Part shown: one piece after another, positions 37,099 to 46,039 of the stretch
Layout: each line of letters starts with the position of its first letter
Numbering within the stretch: position 1 is the stretch's first letter
Source: Arthrobacter sp. zg-Y20
GTDB taxonomy: Bacteria > Actinomycetota > Actinomycetes > Actinomycetales > Micrococcaceae
Reading direction: 5' to 3'
Assembly (NCBI RefSeq): GCF_030142075.1
Contig: NZ_CP126241.1
Location: 1,488,001 to 1,552,000 of the forward strand
DNA: 64,000 nucleotides
Position numbers and translations under genes: made by a program
The notes under the pieces: model-generated
The model's input: only the letters and a program-made list of their open reading frames with translations
The model's database searches: none
What the model was told of the DNA's origin: nothing

Positions 37099-37557
37099 AT
37101 GAGTACCGGAATCCGCCCTTCGTATCTGCGCTGGGGGCCCATAGGGCTTGTTGCCCTCGGCGGCGCAGCGGGTGCCGCGAGCCGCGAGGGTCTGAGTCTG
37201 GCGATCCCGAATCTCGGCTCGGTGCCGGTGGCGATCCCGATCATTAACGTGGTGGGTGCGTTTCTGCTCGGCTACCTCTACGAGGCGGTCACCCGTCTCG
37301 ACAAGGCGCGTCCGACCGGTGCGAACCTCAAGCTGCTGCTGGGCACCGGTTTCTGCGGTGGCTTCACCACCTACAGTTCGCTGGCCACTGACACCGCTGT
37401 GCTCTTTCGCGACGGGTTACCCTGGCCGGCGGTGATCTACGCCCTCGGCACAGTGCTGGTGGGCGCCTGCGCCACCTGGGCGGGCATCGCCATTGCGACT
37501 GCTGTCAATAACCGCTCCGGCCAACACCGCAAAGATGAGCAGGAGGACGCTACATGA
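37099..37557 (+). CDS. crcB: Fluoride channel subunit CrcB/Fluc, first copy
   Basis: 152 residues with four membrane helices. It has the family blocks GGAAGAASREGLSLAI, IINVVGAFLLGYLYE with the pore Asn, and GTGFCGGFTTYSSLATDT with the Phe/Thr-rich break in helix 3. CrcB forms dual-topology dimers that export fluoride. A second crcB overlaps by 4 bp, the arrangement seen for heterodimeric Fluc pairs. GGGAG precedes the ATG. I see no fluoride riboswitch upstream. Confidence 0.93.
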   Translation: MSTGIRPSYLRWGPIGLVALGGAAGAASREGLSLAIPNLGSVPVAIPIINVVGAFLLGYLYEAVTRLDKARPTGANLKLLLGTGFCGGFTTYSSLATDTAVLFRDGLPWPAVIYALGTVLVGACATWAGIAIATAVNNRSGQHRKDEQEDAT

Positions 37558-37931
37558 CTCCCGGAATTTTCCTGCTGCTGGCGCTTGCCGGCGGGGTTGG
37601 GGCCACGGTGCGGTTCGTCGTGGACGGACTTATCCGCGCCCACTCCAATACGCGGTTTGCGTGGGCGACGACGATCATCAACGTCTCAGGTTCCCTCGTG
37701 CTGGGCTTCCTCACCGGCCTGACCATCGCGCGCTTTGTGTCTACCGACTTCAGCATCGTGATCGGAACCGGGTTCCTCGGCGGCTACACCACCTTCAGCA
37801 CGGCGAGCTACGAGACTGTGCAGCTGATCAAAAAGGGCCGGTACGGGGCGTCCTTCATCAGCGGCGTGGTGATGCTCGTGCTCTCCGTTGCGGCCGCGGC
37901 GATTGGACTCTGGATCGGCGCTGCCCTGTAG
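37554..37931 (+). CDS. crcB: Fluoride channel subunit CrcB/Fluc, second copy
   Basis: 125 residues, four membrane helices. It has GGVGATVRFVVDGLI, TTIINVSGSLVLGFLTG and GTGFLGGYTTFSTASYETV, matching the same family positions as its partner. The start overlaps the first crcB stop (ATGA). The two copies probably assemble as an antiparallel heterodimer that lets fluoride leak out of the cell. Confidence 0.93.
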   Translation: MTPGIFLLLALAGGVGATVRFVVDGLIRAHSNTRFAWATTIINVSGSLVLGFLTGLTIARFVSTDFSIVIGTGFLGGYTTFSTASYETVQLIKKGRYGASFISGVVMLVLSVAAAAIGLWIGAAL

Positions 37932-38075: not shown

Positions 38076-39005
38076 CTAGGGGCGTTTGGCTGCGGGGATG
38101 TAGTGGGCAATCACCAGGAACACCCAGGTGGTGAGGATGTACGGCCAGGTGTAGGTGGGAGCATTCAGGTCATGCATGAACACCGTGACCACCGCGGTCA
38201 CCACGGTTCCGATGACGGCCAGGACCCATGAGACCGTGTTGCTCTTCAGGAAAACGACGGCGAGGGCAATGGCGGTCAATACACCGGAATAGCCGGCCAG
38301 GCCGTTTGCCGTTTCGGTGAGGGCCTCTCCCATCGCCAAGGCGCACAGGCTGCCCACCACGCTGCCCAACAACCCGGCGAGCCCCACTTTCCAGCCCGCT
38401 ACGAAGAGGCCTAGCAGGATCAGGGCCCCTGACCACACGTTGTTGATCAGTACTACCTCAGACACATTCGTCAGCAACGAGCGCGCGAAGGCAAGGGGAG
38501 CCGAGTCGATGGTTTGTGACGGTCCCGAACTCACATGCAGCGCCTCGGTGCTGAGCAGTATTCCTGTCGCAACAATGCAGAACGGTGCCGTCGTCGACGG
38601 CAGCCCATAGACTCTCAGCGGCGTTTTCGTGAACAGTGCGACCACCAGCCACGTGACCGGGGCGCAGAGCGCACCGCCGATGAGCGCGATCGGATACGCC
38701 GCCCACTGGCCGCCAATGGCCGAATACGTTGCAGCACCGGCCAGGGCGCCGCAGAAGCCCTGCAAGCCTGCGGTAACGGACGAGGGATCGGCCCGAAGCA
38801 GGCGCCCTGCCGCTGTGTTTCCCGCGCAGCCAATCAGCACGAGCAGGGCCATGCGCCAGTCGGCCACGACGAAGGCGGCCAGGATCAGCAGCGCCGTCCA
38901 GATGTTGCTCTGGAAGAAGATCTGGGACAGGCCCTGTCCCCACCCCTTCAGCCAGCCTGAACCCGAGATAGCCGAATCCGGGTCGGCCGCGCCTGCATTG
39001 CTCAC
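38076..39005 (-). CDS. Urea channel/transporter of the UT family
   Basis: 309 residues, about ten membrane helices in two inverted repeats. The UT signature is seen as YGLPSTTAPF, with the first-repeat counterpart near SNIWTALLIL and a second-repeat partner NVWSGALILLGL. It admits urea by facilitated diffusion. It is the last gene of the urease operon and overlaps the nickel permease by 4 bp, so urea entry is coordinated with urease production. Confidence 0.9.
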   Translation of the reverse strand: MSNAGAADPDSAISGSGWLKGWGQGLSQIFFQSNIWTALLILAAFVVADWRMALLVLIGCAGNTAAGRLLRADPSSVTAGLQGFCGALAGAATYSAIGGQWAAYPIALIGGALCAPVTWLVVALFTKTPLRVYGLPSTTAPFCIVATGILLSTEALHVSSGPSQTIDSAPLAFARSLLTNVSEVVLINNVWSGALILLGLFVAGWKVGLAGLLGSVVGSLCALAMGEALTETANGLAGYSGVLTAIALAVVFLKSNTVSWVLAVIGTVVTAVVTVFMHDLNAPTYTWPYILTTWVFLVIAHYIPAAKRP

Positions 39006-40126
39006 GTCGTGTCCTTTCCCGGGGCGCCGTCAGGCGGCGCTTGGGCGGGTCGCGGTCCGGCCCACCGTTCCTCCACCCGGCCGAACCTCCAGTACGCCGT
39101 CGAGACGAGCCAGACGAGCACGAGGGTTCCTACGACGATGTAGCCCACGTTCTCCAGGTCAATGCCGGCCACCCACCCCGTGAGCGGGTCGCGCAGCCCG
39201 AGCTTCTCATTCAGCAGGCCAACCAGTTCGATGCCGCCGATCATCACGGCGATCATCACGGAGAGGCCGGTGATGGTGAGGTTGTAATAGAGCTTGCGGA
39301 TCGCGTTGACGCTCGCCCAGCCGTAGGCTTTGACCATTGCGGCCGAGTCGAGCGTGTCGAACAGGCTCATGCCGGCCGCGAAGATCAGCGGCAGGCAGAG
39401 GATGGCGTACCAGGGGAGCCCGGTTGCCGCACCCGTTCCGGCCAGCACGAGCAGCGCTATCTCGCTGGCGGTATCGAAGCCGAGCCCGAACAGGAAACCG
39501 ACCGCGTACATTTTGCCCGGCCGGTCGATTGACCGCATCATGGGCCGGATCAGGCGGCTGATGAAACCGCGGCCCTGCAGATGCCGCTCCAGTTCCAACT
39601 CATCCAGATCTCCGTCGCGCGACGCCCGCCAGACCTTGAGGATCCCCATAAACGCGACGGCGTTGATGAGTCCGATCAGCAGCAGGAATACTCCGGAGAT
39701 AACCGTGCCGAACACGCCGAGGCCGTTCCGGACGGCGTTCCCGTCATCGCTCAGCCCCACGGCCCAGCTGACCCCGAGCGCCAGCAAGGCCGCCATCAGG
39801 AACACGATGGTGGAGTGGCCGAGGGAGAAGAACAGGCCGACGCCGGCAGCCGGCTTGCGCAGGTCAACGAGCTTGCGGGTGGTGTTGTCTATGGCGGCGA
39901 TGTGGTCGGCGTCGAAGGCGTGCCTGACGCCGAGGACATAGGCCACCACGGCAATGCCCACACCGAAGACGGATGAGCCGAGCTGGAGATGCAGCGGCTC
40001 GACCAGGACGAAGAACAGACCGAAGCCTGCAATGTGCAGGAGCACGACTGGAATGAAAGCACGTACCACCTGCGCCCGGTAGGAGCGCCCCTGCGTCGCG
40101 GCTTCCGCTTGCGTGTTGTCTCGCAC
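39002..40126 (-). CDS. Nickel/cobalt permease (NiCoT, HoxN/NixA family)
   Basis: 374 residues from the GTG at 40126, supported by GAGGGG about 8 nt upstream (the open frame continues 44 residues upstream into ureD). The defining helix-2 motif is RHAFDADHIAAIDNTTRK, followed by GLFFSLGHSTIVF and a LGFDTASEIALL segment, all characteristic NiCoT signatures. It imports nickel for the urease active site. The gene is 14 bp after ureD in the operon. Confidence 0.95.
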   Translation of the reverse strand: MRDNTQAEAATQGRSYRAQVVRAFIPVVLLHIAGFGLFFVLVEPLHLQLGSSVFGVGIAVVAYVLGVRHAFDADHIAAIDNTTRKLVDLRKPAAGVGLFFSLGHSTIVFLMAALLALGVSWAVGLSDDGNAVRNGLGVFGTVISGVFLLLIGLINAVAFMGILKVWRASRDGDLDELELERHLQGRGFISRLIRPMMRSIDRPGKMYAVGFLFGLGFDTASEIALLVLAGTGAATGLPWYAILCLPLIFAAGMSLFDTLDSAAMVKAYGWASVNAIRKLYYNLTITGLSVMIAVMIGGIELVGLLNEKLGLRDPLTGWVAGIDLENVGYIVVGTLVLVWLVSTAYWRFGRVEERWAGPRPAQAPPDGAPGKDTT

Positions 40127-40140
40127 CGTTCCACCCCTCT

Positions 40141-41226
40141 CTAGCTCTTGCGGATCACGGGTGCCCGTTTCCCGGTCAGCAACTCGTGCACGGCGGCCGC
40201 GGCGGCCGTGTTCGCTGCGGCCACGGCCACGGTGTCGTTGCCTACCAGCCGCATCCACACACCGGCTTCACCGGGTAACGTGCTCACCCCGAAGATCAGG
40301 TCGCCGCCGCTCTCTGCGACTGCCCGGTGCATGGTATCGGCGAGCTGAGCCGGCGGTACGAGGGGCGTGAAGACGTAAAGCATCGCAAGCACGTCATGGT
40401 TCGCGAGCACGCCGAGCCCGTTCACGCCGTCGGACCCTCCCGGCTCTCCTGCCCCGGGGCGCAGCCTCACCCGGTCCAGGGCAACGAGCCGGCCGTCCGG
40501 ACGCCGCACCTCGAGGTCGGAGGCGTACACGTCATAGGCATGGCGTTCGCCGCGGGCGAGCCTGCCGGCGTACAGGGTCTCGCCGAGCAGCAGGGTGGCC
40601 GACGCGTCGACCACCGCCGATGTCTGCTGGTAGAAGCGCGAACCGGCGAAGGGGACCACGGCCTCGGGCAGGTACTCCGCGTAGGCGCCTTCTTCGACAG
40701 CGATGTTCATAATCGCGGAGGCGTAGTCGTGCTCCATCCGGTAGACCCGTGTCTGGGTCTGGGTGGTCACATGCGCCGACGTGCCCGGCCCGAAACGCAG
40801 ATCGGTGCGCAGCCTGTCTCCATGCAGGATGCCTCCGCCTGCCGACATCAGGTAGGTGTAGGCCATATCCGGGCGCAGCTCGTTGTAGTAGAGCGGATGC
40901 ATTATCTGCAGCGGTGACTTCTGGTAGTGCTGCACCAGCTCGGTGCGGCCCCGGTTGCGGTCGAACCCCAGCTGCAGAATGCCCACCTTACCCGGGCTGC
41001 CAACGGGCAAACCCCGCCAGATTTGAGCCTGGTGCAGCACTTCTGCCGGAACCCGGGCCGGCTCATAGAACGCCGGTTCGAGCCGGTAGCCGCCCCTGCT
41101 CGGTTCCCGGCCGCCCGCCGGCGCGGGGCGGGGCAGTGCACTCACGCTGGCGAGCCGGGCTGCACCGGCAGCGGTGTTTCCGGCCGGTTCCGCCATAGTT
41201 GCTGGGTCCGTCGCCTTCAGCCTCAT
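40141..41226 (-). CDS. ureD: Urease accessory protein UreD
   Basis: 361 residues from the ATG at 41226, which overlaps the ureG stop as ATGA. An ATG 27 nt upstream would lie inside ureG. Family blocks: GKVGILQLGFDRNRGRTELVQHYQKSPLQIMHPLYY, AGGGILHGDRL and TTQTQTRVYRM. UreD binds apo-urease and, with UreF and UreG, forms the tunnel that delivers nickel. The N-terminus (about 1-45) is Ala/Pro-rich and variable. Confidence 0.95.
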   Translation of the reverse strand: MRLKATDPATMAEPAGNTAAGAARLASVSALPRPAPAGGREPSRGGYRLEPAFYEPARVPAEVLHQAQIWRGLPVGSPGKVGILQLGFDRNRGRTELVQHYQKSPLQIMHPLYYNELRPDMAYTYLMSAGGGILHGDRLRTDLRFGPGTSAHVTTQTQTRVYRMEHDYASAIMNIAVEEGAYAEYLPEAVVPFAGSRFYQQTSAVVDASATLLLGETLYAGRLARGERHAYDVYASDLEVRRPDGRLVALDRVRLRPGAGEPGGSDGVNGLGVLANHDVLAMLYVFTPLVPPAQLADTMHRAVAESGGDLIFGVSTLPGEAGVWMRLVGNDTVAVAAANTAAAAAVHELLTGKRAPVIRKS

Positions 41227-41855
41227 CCGATCAGCTCGGTTCTGGCACCCCACTGGGACATGATCTCCCGCTGGAGTTCGTCAACCCCGAACCCGGTGAG
41301 TGAGTTCGTCAGAACTACGGGCCTGTCTTCACGCACCCGGTGCGCGTCCGACTCCATCACCCCGAGATCCGTGCGGACATATTGTGCAATGTCGATCTTG
41401 TTGATGACCAGGATGTCGCTGTCGGTGATGCCGGGACCCCGCTTGCGCGGCATCTTCTCGCCCTCTGCGGTGTCCAGCACGAACACAAACACGTCCGCCA
41501 GTGCAGGCGAGAACGTCAGCGTCAGATTGTCGCCGCCGGATTCGTAAATCAGTGTGTCGATCTCGGGAAACCGTTCCAGCATTTCGGCCCCTACGGCCAG
41601 GTTCATGGTCGGGTCGTCGCGGACGGCAGTATGCGGGCACGACCCGGTCTCGACGCCCATCACGCGCTCGGGATCGAGGATACCGGCCAACTCACGGCGC
41701 ACGTGGTGGGCATCCTCCTGGGTGTAGATGTCGTTTGTGATGACGCCGGGGGTGCGGCCGGCCTCGATCAGCAGCGGAACCAGCGCCTCCGTCAAAGCTG
41801 TCTTGCCGCTGCCAACGGGTCCGCCGATGCCGATCCTCAAAACGTTCTCGCTCAT
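41223..41855 (-). CDS. ureG: Urease accessory GTPase UreG
   Basis: 210 residues. P-loop GIGGPVGSGKTAL, the nickel-binding metal site in ETGSCPHTA, the switch LIYESGGDNLTLTFSP and the guanine-specificity motif VINKID are present. It hydrolyses GTP to drive nickel transfer into urease. AGAGGAACCC gives a ribosome-binding site. It follows ureF by 46 bp. Confidence 0.97.
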   Translation of the reverse strand: MSENVLRIGIGGPVGSGKTALTEALVPLLIEAGRTPGVITNDIYTQEDAHHVRRELAGILDPERVMGVETGSCPHTAVRDDPTMNLAVGAEMLERFPEIDTLIYESGGDNLTLTFSPALADVFVFVLDTAEGEKMPRKRGPGITDSDILVINKIDIAQYVRTDLGVMESDAHRVREDRPVVLTNSLTGFGVDELQREIMSQWGARTELIG

Positions 41856-41901: not shown

Positions 41902-42591
41902 TCAGCTGGAGAACAGCCGCGCCTCGGCCCTTTCGTGCCGGGCCGACATCACGTCCGCCATGGGCGCGCAGCCGCCGAGGTCAGCGAGATCGCGCTCAAG
42001 GGCGGCATCCGTCGCCTGCTCGATCACCCCGGACGTTTCCAGCAGGATGGCCTGCGCCTGCCGGTGGTCGGTCAGCCGAAGCCGGAGCGCGGCCCCGACG
42101 AAGCTCGCCGAAAAGGCGAACAGGTCCGCTGCAACAGCGTCCCTGGCGTCAACCCCGTTCGCCGCATACACCACAGCTGCGGCGACGGGCTGGCACCCGG
42201 GGGTGCTGCGCACCCGCACCCGCTCCCGGTATTCGGCTAGCAGCGCCTGAGAAGTCAGCTCGGCGCCCAGATCGATCAGCTGGTGCCCGCTGCGTACCGA
42301 AGCGGTGCGCATTTCGGCGTTCAGCTTTGAGGCGAAGAGCCGTTGGTCGATCTCCTGGACGAGTTCGACGTCGCCGTCCGCCGCCGCGCGGTGCGCGGCG
42401 GCGAGTGCGGTTGCGTCCGAAGGCCCGACGGCGTGCAGCAACAGCTCGCCCAGCAGCTGCTGCACGCCGTCCCGGCCCACCAGGCGGGCCTGGCTGTACC
42501 CTTCGAGACTGTGTGACATCGTGTAAAAGCCGCTGGGGAAAGCCGAGTCCGCGAACTGCAGGGCTGTCAGCAACTGGCGTACATCCGTCAT
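41902..42591 (-). CDS. ureF: Urease accessory protein UreF
   Basis: 229 residues, all-helical. It has the family start LQFADSAFPSGFYTMSHSLEGY and the C-terminal region with LRLRLTDHRQAQAILLETS. UreF couples UreG to the urease-UreD complex and checks GTPase timing. It starts 9 bp after ureC. Confidence 0.93.
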   Translation of the reverse strand: MTDVRQLLTALQFADSAFPSGFYTMSHSLEGYSQARLVGRDGVQQLLGELLLHAVGPSDATALAAAHRAAADGDVELVQEIDQRLFASKLNAEMRTASVRSGHQLIDLGAELTSQALLAEYRERVRVRSTPGCQPVAAAVVYAANGVDARDAVAADLFAFSASFVGAALRLRLTDHRQAQAILLETSGVIEQATDAALERDLADLGGCAPMADVMSARHERAEARLFSS

Positions 42592-42600
42592 TCGGTGCCC

Positions 42601-44325
42601 CTAGGCGAGGAAGAACAACTGGGTCAACGGCAGCGACTGGGCCGGAGGGATCGTGGCCAGCGTGCCGTTGTATGTCACGTTGTAGGTCTCCGGGTCCACC
42701 TCGATGTTCGGTGTGGCGCTGTTGCGCACCATGTGCTGCTTGCCGATGCCGCGGCAGCGGTGCACCGGGAGCACCTGGCTCTGAAGCCCGAGCTTCTCCG
42801 GCACACCCTTGTCGATGGCCGCCTGGGACATAAACGTTGCCCGCGTGCTCTGCAGCGCCTTGCCCTGCGCACCGAACATGGGCCGGTAGTACACCGGCTG
42901 AGGGGTCGGCAGTGAGGCGTTCGGATCGCCCATGAGTGCCCAGTTGATCAGTCCGCCTTTGACGATGAGCCGGGGTTTGGCGCCGAAGGATTGGATCGGC
43001 CAAAGCACGATATCGGCCATCTTGCCCTCTTCCAGTGAGCCGATGTAGTCGGACACGCCCTGGGTGATGGCCGGGTTGATCGTGATCTTGGCGAGGAAGC
43101 GCAGCACCCGGAAGTTGTCGTTGTCCGGGCTGTCCTCGGGCAGCTTGCCGCGCTGGTCCTTGCAGTGGTGGGCGATCTGGAAGGTGCGCATGAACGACTC
43201 GCCAATGCGCCCCATCGCCTGGGAGTCGGAGGAAACCATCGAAATGATGCCCTCGTCGTGGAAAACGGTTTCGGCGGAGATTGTCTCGGCCCGCACCCGG
43301 GAATCGGCGAAGGCGACGTCTTCCGGGATGTCGTGGGAAAGGTGGTGGCAGACCATCACCATGTCGAGCAGCTCATCGACCGAGTTGACGGTGTAGGGAA
43401 GGGTCGGGTTCGTCGACGACGGGAGGACGTTGGGGTGCCCGGCCACCTTGATGATGTCCGGGGCGTGTCCGCCGCCGGCACCTTCGGTGTGGAAGGTGTG
43501 GATGGTGCGCCCGTCGATCGCGTCCAGGGTGTTCTCCACGTAACCGGACTCGTTGAGGCTGTCGGTGTGCACCGAGACCTGCACATCGTAGTGATCTGCC
43601 ATGGAAAGTGCATTGCTGAGCGCTGCCGGGGTGGTGCCGTAGTCCTCATGTACTTTGAGTCCGGCCGCCCCGGCCTCGATCTGTTCCATCAGGGCCTCCG
43701 GCAGCGATCCGTTGCCCTTGGCGAGGAAACCCATGTTCACCGGCATTCCCTCGGCGGATTGGAGCATCCGGGCGAGGTTCCAAACACCGGGGGTGGTGGT
43801 GACGCCGTTGGTGCCGTCGGTTGGCCCGGTGCCGCCGCCGAAGATGGTCGTGATGCCGTTGGAGAGGGTCGCCAGCGCCTGTTCCGGCGAGATGTAGTGC
43901 ACGTGCGAATCGATGCCGCCGGCGGTGGCAATAAAGTGTTCGCCGGCCAGTAATTCAGTGCCCGGTCCAACCACCAGCCGCGGATCCACCCCGTCCTGGG
44001 TGTGCGGGTTGCCGGACTTGCCGACGCCGGCGATCTTGCCGTCGCGTACACCGATATCGCCCTTGACCACGCCAAGCACTGGATCCAGGATGATGGCGTT
44101 CGTGATCACCAGGTCGAGCACGCCTTCCGCGGCGGTCGCCTGCGGGTCGGCAGCCATGCCGTCACGGGCGGTCTTACCGCCGCCGTAGACAACCTCGTCG
44201 CCGTAGTGGCCTTCGTTGTAGTCCTTCTCAATCTCGATCACCAGGTTGGTATCGGCCAGGCGGACCCGGTCCCCGGTGGTCGGTCCAAAGAGATCGGTGT
44301 ACTGCTTGCGCGAGATCTTCGCCAT
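42601..44325 (-). CDS. ureC: Urease alpha subunit
   Basis: 574 residues from the ATG at 44325 (a GTG one codon upstream is also possible). Catalytic features: nickel ligands in IDSHVHYI, the carbamylated Lys224 in GLKVHEDYG, His residues in [11 protein letters not shown] and [13 protein letters not shown], the flap [12 protein letters not shown], and [12 protein letters not shown] with the ligand Asp. It hydrolyses urea to ammonia and carbamate. The ureB TGA and ureC ATG share one base (TGATG), so translation is coupled. Confidence 0.98.
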
Positions 44326-44771
44326 CACTTCTTCCCTTCTCCTGCGTTACCCGTTTTCGCCGGGTTGCCCGTGTTGCCGGCACTGGGTTTGGCATTCGGT
44401 TTGCCGTTCTGGAACTTGAGTTCGTTCATCCGGTCCATCGCCCGAATTTTCGTTGCCGCAGAATCGAGCCCGCCGTCTACGAGGTTGTTGAAGCCGATGA
44501 CCCGGCGGTTGCCGGCGTAAGCCGTCAGGGTTACCTCTTTGGTGTCGCCTGCCTCGATGCGGATACCGGTGCCTGCCGGCACGTCAAGGTGCATGCCGTA
44601 GGCGAGTTCGCGTTCAAACAGAAGCGCCTTGTTGGTTTCGAAGAAGTGAAAGTGGGAGCCGATCTGTATGGCCCGGTCACCTGTGTTGCTCACCAGCAGC
44701 TTGACGCTCGGCCTGCCGGCATTGATCTCGATCTCTTGTTCTCCGTGGTCATAAGTGGGGCTGCCCAGCAT
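44325..44771 (-). CDS. ureB: Urease beta subunit
   Basis: 148 residues from the ATG at 44771 (AAGGA upstream). Core blocks: [33 protein letters not shown], and [42 protein letters not shown]. The last 30 or so residues ([18 protein letters not shown] and beyond) are a Lys/Gly/Asn-rich low-complexity tail longer than in typical UreB. The gene is separated from ureA by a CbiX-like gene, which is unusual. Confidence 0.95.
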
Positions 44772-44832: not shown

Positions 44833-45732
44833 TCAGCTCGAGCCGATCGGGGCGGGGTGGTGATGGGTGTGGCCGTCGCCCGCCCCGTTGCTGTGGATGT
44901 GGGAGTGGCCGTTAGCCTCCTCGAAGGCGTGCGAGTGGGCATAACCGTGACTGTGGTCAGCCTGAAGGCCTGCCTCAATGCCGGTACGGCCGTGCCCGAG
45001 GGCGTGCAGTGCGTCATGGACCCGTTCGCGGATGACGCGCAGAACCGCCTGTTCGCTCAGCAGGGCACCGTAGAAGCCGGTGTCGGCAAGTGCGCCTTCG
45101 CCGAAGGGGACAGCTTCGCCGTGCACGGCGGCCACCCGGCGGAACCCGGCCGGTACAACCACCGTTTCCGTACTCCCAAGCAGCCGCATCCGCCGGACAG
45201 CTTCCAGGAGTGCCTCCGTGTCCTCGACAGCAGCCGTTTCCACCGGGTTGCCGGCCCCGTGGGTCCGCACCAAATGCGCGATGCGGTGGAGTTCGGCGTC
45301 GTCGAAGGGGTTGGCTGCATCTGCAACTATCAACACGGCTGCGCGGGGTGTGCGCCGGCGCACCTCGACGGCGGCGGTCCGCAGCCACGCCGTGAGGTGG
45401 TCGGCCGTGCCGAAAGCGTCCGCCAAAGCCAGCGGCGCGGCGGCGCTGTCCCGGGCGCCTTGGGCACCGAGCCACTTGAGCGTTTTCGCCGTGTCGGCCA
45501 CGAGAGTCGGATTGCGCCCGAAAGTCATTGGTAGCACGACGATTGGTGCCGCCTCCGCGCCGGAGATGTTCCGCGCGCGCAGCCGGGTGAGGGTGTTGTG
45601 CAACGGCCGTCCGGGCGGGGTGACGAGAGCGTCGGGGATCATATCGGTGAGGAAGGAGAAGTCCGCACCGTTGCCGCTCTCGTGCCCTCCGACCAGGACC
45701 ACCGTTGCACGCGGCTCGGCGGGCCCGGTCAA
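44833..45732 (-). CDS. CbiX/SirB-like protein with a histidine-rich tail, candidate urease nickel chaperone
   Basis: About 299 residues from a TTG at 45732, one base after the ureA stop; another in-frame TTG 12 nt upstream is possible. The core (about 1-255) resembles the CbiX/SirB class of metal chelatases: an early [13 protein letters not shown] strand, [25 protein letters not shown], and [25 protein letters not shown]. The C-terminal 40 residues are packed with His ([27 protein letters not shown]), a metal-binding tail like that of UreE or CbiX. It lies between ureA and ureB, and the operon has no ureE, so a role as nickel store or donor is likely (inference). A literal sirohydrochlorin chelatase role is less likely here. 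Confidence 0.75.
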
Positions 45733-45733
45733 G

Positions 45734-46039
45734 TCACACCCCAATGGGATCGTGACAGGAGACCAGCTTGCTGCCGTCAACGAAGGTCGCCTCGACCTGC
45801 AGGAGAGGCAGCCGCTCACGCACGCCGTCCATGCATTCGGACTCGGAGACGATGGTCTTGCCGAGCTCCATCACCTCAGCAACGGTCCGTCCGTCGCGGG
45901 CGCCCTCCAGGATTGCCTCGCAGATGAGGGCGGTTGCTTCGCTGACACTCAGCTTGGTTCCCCGGTCGCGCCGCTTCCGGGCCAGATCAGCAACCTGGTA
46001 GATGTAAAGCTTGTCGATTTCTTTGGGAGTGAGGTTCAT
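45734..46039 (-). CDS. ureA: Urease gamma subunit
   Basis: 101 residues from the ATG at 46039, with GAAGGTGAAG upstream; the usual length for UreA. It begins MNLTPKEIDKLYIYQVADLA and contains LSVSEATALICEAILEGARDG, VAEVMELGK and VPLLQVEATF-like FVDGSKLVSCHDPI at the end. First gene of the leftward urease operon. The 223-bp region upstream, to osmC, must hold the operon promoter; I found no full GlnR box there. Confidence 0.96.
   Translation of the reverse strand: MNLTPKEIDKLYIYQVADLARKRRDRGTKLSVSEATALICEAILEGARDGRTVAEVMELGKTIVSESECMDGVRERLPLLQVEATFVDGSKLVSCHDPIGV

Follow-up and report, generated by a model that had tools for sequence, protein, structure and literature searches.

A class-II-chelatase-fold protein as a probable substitute for UreE in an actinobacterial urease lineage

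UreE is widely regarded as the nickel donor of bacterial urease. In one urease lineage found in Actinomycetes, its place appears to have been taken by a protein of different descent: from sequence comparisons, it is quite probable that the product of a gene at positions 44833-45732 (minus strand), here designated X, is a nickel metallochaperone, both store and donor, for urease maturation, and that it replaced UreE. The gene lies in a 64-kb window (the whole stretch of DNA analysed) within the complete 3.53-Mb genome of Arthrobacter sp. zg-Y20. By membership criteria X is neither a UreE nor a working CbiX, and it probably works like UreE. In a fuller account, which we favor with somewhat less assurance, a chelatase from the B12/siroheme superfamily, now dead, was turned into a dedicated nickel metallochaperone; it would dock on UreG and stand in functionally for UreE, a third way of loading urease with nickel that has not been described before. 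A literature search, in which subscription journals were thinly covered, found no report that connects urease operons with a CbiX-type protein. If X does have this role, it shows that a tetrapyrrole chelatase can be recruited as a protein metallochaperone, and it offers a clean system for testing what a nickel donor must do.

The urease genes all lie on the minus strand, and their Pfam and NCBIfam assignments reproduce the order given in a preliminary description of this DNA, from ureA to the urea channel with no ureE:

45734..46039, minus strand: ureA, urease gamma (PF00547, E 6e-39)
44833..45732, minus strand: X, class-II-chelatase-fold urease accessory protein, 299 aa (from the ORF, sequence, fold and HHalign)
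44836..44958, minus strand: His-rich tail of X (from His count, low pLDDT and alignment)
44325..44771, minus strand: ureB, urease beta (PF00699, E 7e-39)
42601..44328, minus strand: ureC, urease alpha (PF00449/PF01979)
41902..42591, minus strand: ureF (PF01730, E 5e-35)
41223..41855, minus strand: ureG (TIGR00101, E 5e-71)
40141..41253, minus strand: ureD, given as the ORF, whose true start may be internal (PF01774, E 4e-50)
39002..40258, minus strand: NicT nickel permease (NF052500 equivalog, 450.1 bits; PF03824, E 2e-87)
38076..39005, minus strand: urea channel/transporter, UT (PF03253, E 1e-59)

The X ORF runs from a TTG start at 45732 to a stop at 44833, exactly the span first assigned to it, and a single base separates the ureA stop from this TTG. 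The gap between ureC and ureF is 9 bases, leaving no room for ureE at its usual site. The preliminary description had raised the case of a ureE elsewhere in the genome; a search of the complete 3.53-Mb sequence with UreE_N (PF02814) gave no match. The UreG of the window starts MSENVLRIGIGG and keeps the CPH site, and comparison of UreG termini across operons showed that neither its N- nor its C-terminus bears a His-rich extension.

X scores 14.1 bits against Pfam CbiX, under the curated cut-off of 22 bits, and the best of four relatives scanned reaches 20.9 bits, also under the cut-off. A PDB sequence search with X returned no match even at E 10, UreE_N (PF02814) likewise matched nothing in X with E values up to 1 allowed, and a low-scoring NCBIfam match, PRK08263, was put down to noise. 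A profile of the X family retrieves CbiX-L proteins from other Actinomycetes, two of them confirmed as PF01903, and HHalign profile-profile comparison of the family with five actinobacterial CbiX-L proteins gave 97.6% probability (E 3e-12) over residues 9-243. The AlphaFold (AF2) model of X is bilobal, with a mean pLDDT of 83, mostly above 90 in the core and below 50 at residues 265-299; against known structures it gave Z scores of 13.4 for SirB (6jv6), 13.4 for ferrochelatase, 13.2 for CbiK (2xvz) and 13.1 for CbiK (1qgo). The label "CbiX-like" originally attached to the protein is thus borne out by profile-profile comparison and fold, but not at the Pfam cut-off. Together these results show that X descends from class II chelatases, with actinobacterial CbiX-L as its nearest kin. 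The core is under clear purifying selection, with a dN/dS of about 0.15-0.18 relative to five Arthrobacter relatives.

The residues on which chelation depends are only partly kept. Catalysis relies on His14 and His79 in CbiX-L of B. megaterium (PMC7689651) and on His10 and His76 in SirB (PMC11301274). In an alignment of 22 X proteins, 21 retain the first catalytic His, as H17, and the second is absent from all 22, its position being occupied by T, V, E and the like; X has GRNPT or GRDPV where CbiX-L has GHxKGDIP. No conserved His pair was found in the C-terminal half of X in this alignment, and the MxCxxC Fe-S motif (MxCDxC) of the C-terminal region, present in actinobacterial CbiX-L, is missing. 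Invariant positions are G72-R73, H112 and R118, with H17 and H112 the best-conserved core histidines. X therefore shares the bilobal class II fold and a His-rich C-terminal region with CbiX-L, the sirohydrochlorin cobaltochelatase of anaerobic B12 synthesis (L054, L049, L055, L065, L068), and differs from it in lacking the second catalytic His of GHxKGDIP and the Fe-S motif, in its sub-cut-off Pfam score and in its location in urease operons. X cannot be taken for an ordinary CbiX, given the loss of a catalytic His, its Pfam score and the presence of a true CbiX beside it in some genomes, described below. The preliminary description had also likened X to the nickel chelatase CfbA; an analogy with an active nickel chelatase finds no support, as no member of the X family has the second catalytic His. 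CfbA/CbiX-S and SirB share superfamily and fold with X; CfbA, however, is a small homodimeric single-domain protein, whereas X is a bilobal fused double domain of 299 residues that lacks a pair of the His9/His75 type, and its gene is found in no F430 or siroheme pathway context.

The His-dense tail of about 40 residues noted at the outset is well outside the local composition: the last 40 residues contain 11 His (P = 3e-10, with the 2.0% His content of the neighbouring proteins as background). It consists of a conserved 13-residue motif followed by HxH repeats and is predicted to be disordered. Each of the 21 aligned X proteins other than a remnant in genome G602 has a His-rich tail. The motif is kept across Arthrobacter and Microbacterium, and in looser form in Streptomyces, while most tail spacers vary. 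The His-rich region of CbiX-L has been proposed to serve metal storage or delivery and is dispensable for chelation (PMC7689651); since CbiX-L has such a region of its own, the tail of X may have been inherited from there. Four CbiX-L proteins from other Actinomycetes (L054, L055, L068, L069) were also seen to carry His-rich tails, in these cases after a CDTC-type motif. In K. aerogenes, UreE holds most of its nickel on the His tail, and deletion of the tail does not stop delivery (PMC7055735), so a His tail alone is no proof of donor function.

X is a conserved, urease-only family that extends from Arthrobacter and Microbacterium to Streptomyces. Full-length X was present in 5 other genomes of a 245-genome family sample, all of the same genus (five further matches were short and weak), in five further genomes of the order sample and in four more of the class sample; Streptomyces and Embleya plasmid records also encode it. 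Wherever a complete operon was recovered, X is encoded between ureA and ureB, and these operons come from no fewer than six families of the class. The preliminary description had read such a position, between two structural subunit genes, as a sign of stoichiometric production, a suggestion that gained no support here. Within the genus sample, X occurs in 6/6 genomes with an X-type urease and in 0/11 others. Seven genomes have a true CbiX beside X (G733, G911, G901, G961, G302, G496, G602). Our own genome has no Pfam-level CbiX (PF01903), and PF01903 is absent from Arthrobacter genomes without X as well, which indicates that X does not fill this gap.

X was not seen outside a urease context, and even the G602 remnant (L035, 7347-8942), which has lost the tail motif, adjoins a ureG, one without the Cys of CPH. 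No urease alpha gene was found in the G602 draft genome. Loss of both the X tail motif and the UreG Cys is expected if both tracked nickel delivery, and this single case suggests that both metal sites decayed once urease was gone, the pair having either decayed or been reused. Two irregular loci were also observed. In an Embleya plasmid (L173), X is followed by a ureB-like gene, and ureC, ureF and ureG were not detected in the 14.7-kb stretch; in Arthrobacter sp. ATA002 (L002/L037), ureC (~10852) and ureG (~12348) are each split in two frames, reflecting sequencing error or pseudogenes.

The preliminary description had argued from the missing ureE to the role of X. As a sufficient argument this fails, since hardly any urease of the class comes with a UreE: of the 390 genomes in the class sample, about 177 encode urease alpha and 7 encode a UreE that scores above the curated cut-off, and in the genus sample UreE occurs in 0/29 genomes and urease in 24/29. 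Many genomes of the genus have another urease operon without X, and this second type lacks both UreE and X. With most actinobacterial ureases lacking UreE, its absence is weak evidence for what X does.

Stronger evidence comes from the complementarity of His-rich elements. UreG termini were compared across operons, using 80 further operon regions and a conservative start rule for scoring; the count leaves out eight stretches in which no UreG was detected (L120, L122, L123, L126, L128, L136, L137, L143). UreG has 0-1 terminal His in X operons (22/22 distinct UreG) and in UreE operons (8/8), whereas in operons with neither UreE nor X at least 3 are found in 55/61, with a median of 7 (P = 3e-10, a value that ignores the kinship of these related rows). 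Among the exceptions, L111, L119 and L145 have a His cluster just upstream of the rule-chosen UreG start, while L131, L132 and L139, with neither X nor UreE, have little His in UreG even with upstream starts, indicating that a His element is not strictly needed. Both operon types occur within one genome in G733, Arthrobacter G223 and G131. The pattern suggests a rule by which a separate donor, UreE or X, would pair with a plain UreG, and UreG would otherwise usually bear the His element itself. His-rich UreG extensions in fungi and plants have been proposed as a UreE stand-in (PMC10100864). Like X, His-extended UreG (in fungi, plants and most actinobacterial UreG here) goes with urease maturation without UreE; there the GTPase itself bears the His element, whereas in X operons a separate protein does.

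A UreC tree of 72 rows, assessed by SH-aLRT support only and with the long-branch row L143 used for no claim, placed the X operons in one clade (SH-aLRT 100), to which the ureC of the window was assigned through close Arthrobacter relatives. Its sister (SH-aLRT 100) comprises four proteobacterial operons, from E. albertii, P. rettgeri, Microvirga and Roseomonas, and operons whose UreG is His-extended group apart in a clade of their own. In 4/4 sister operons a UreE with a His-rich tail (53-63 bits) is encoded between ureC and ureF, and in the three that are annotated a urea transporter follows ureD. Given this sister relationship, UreE was most likely lost and X gained on the branch leading to the X clade, with later transfer or loss among Actinomycetes. 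Since X is one clade, the complementarity with UreG reflects few independent events, effectively one evolutionary event. Along with the urease-only linkage and the His complementarity, the UreE-bearing sister clade gives good support to the proposal, made in the preliminary description, that X would replace UreE as nickel store or donor.

The UreE (PF02814/PF05194) of these four proteobacteria resembles X in its proposed role, in its location in a urease operon beside a plain UreG, and in its His-rich C-terminal tail, a feature common but not universal in UreE and present in X. The two are unrelated in sequence and fold, and their genes lie at different sites, ureE between ureC and ureF and X between ureA and ureB. 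With X fixed in urease operons, UreE absent and UreG plain, X is proposed to fill the UreE role: nickel would enter through the adjacent NicT, be captured by the His-rich tail of X, pass to a site on the bilobal core, whose best-conserved histidines are H17 and H112, and then reach UreG at its CPH site; UreG, together with UreF and UreD, would load urease. Of these steps direct transfer to UreG, as opposed to buffering alone, is the least certain.

Such buffering is the alternative with the most in its favor, and we still consider it unlikely. X would then be only a nickel buffer or detoxifier, comparable to Hpn or the tail of SlyD, co-expressed with urease and making no contact with UreG, which would use the free nickel pool. 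The disordered tail is indeed the most recognisable metal-binding feature of X, and the UreE of K. aerogenes, with most of its nickel on a tail that it can deliver without, fits the same picture (PMC7055735). However, a 250-residue core under the purifying selection described above, with invariant G72-R73, H112 and R118, exceeds the needs of a tail carrier and argues that X is more than a passive one, and X operons have a plain UreG, the type that is elsewhere found beside a dedicated donor, UreE.

It is less probable still that X has remained a tetrapyrrole chelatase, inserting Fe, Co or Ni into sirohydrochlorin and perhaps serving as the siroheme chelatase of the cell, with urease a chance neighbour. 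The SirB/CbiX fold, the retention of H17 and the lack of a PF01903 match in its own genome are consistent with this reading; the second catalytic His is nevertheless gone in 22/22 proteins, the C-terminal half has no conserved His pair, seven X-bearing genomes also have a true CbiX, and X has not been seen away from urease genes. Least probable of all is that X serves urease as a structural or assembly factor, holding for instance gamma and beta until alpha joins, with an incidental His tail. The constant position of the gene between ureA and ureB, and not among the accessory genes, would suit such a factor, but it leaves unexplained the complementarity with His elements elsewhere and the conservation of the tail motif from Arthrobacter to Microbacterium (looser in Streptomyces) while most spacers vary, and the sister-clade urease with UreE needs no such factor. 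A nickel metallochaperone remains the preferred reading of X.

Beside the urea channel, the window also contains two overlapping CrcB/FluC-type fluoride channel genes on the plus strand, at 37099-37557 (PF02537, E 1e-23) and 37554-37931. Relatives of these genes were found in none of the non-X operon loci examined; they adjoin most X-type urease operons and occur within the sister Roseomonas operon (L175). Fluoride is a urease inhibitor, and the two systems may therefore be functionally linked.
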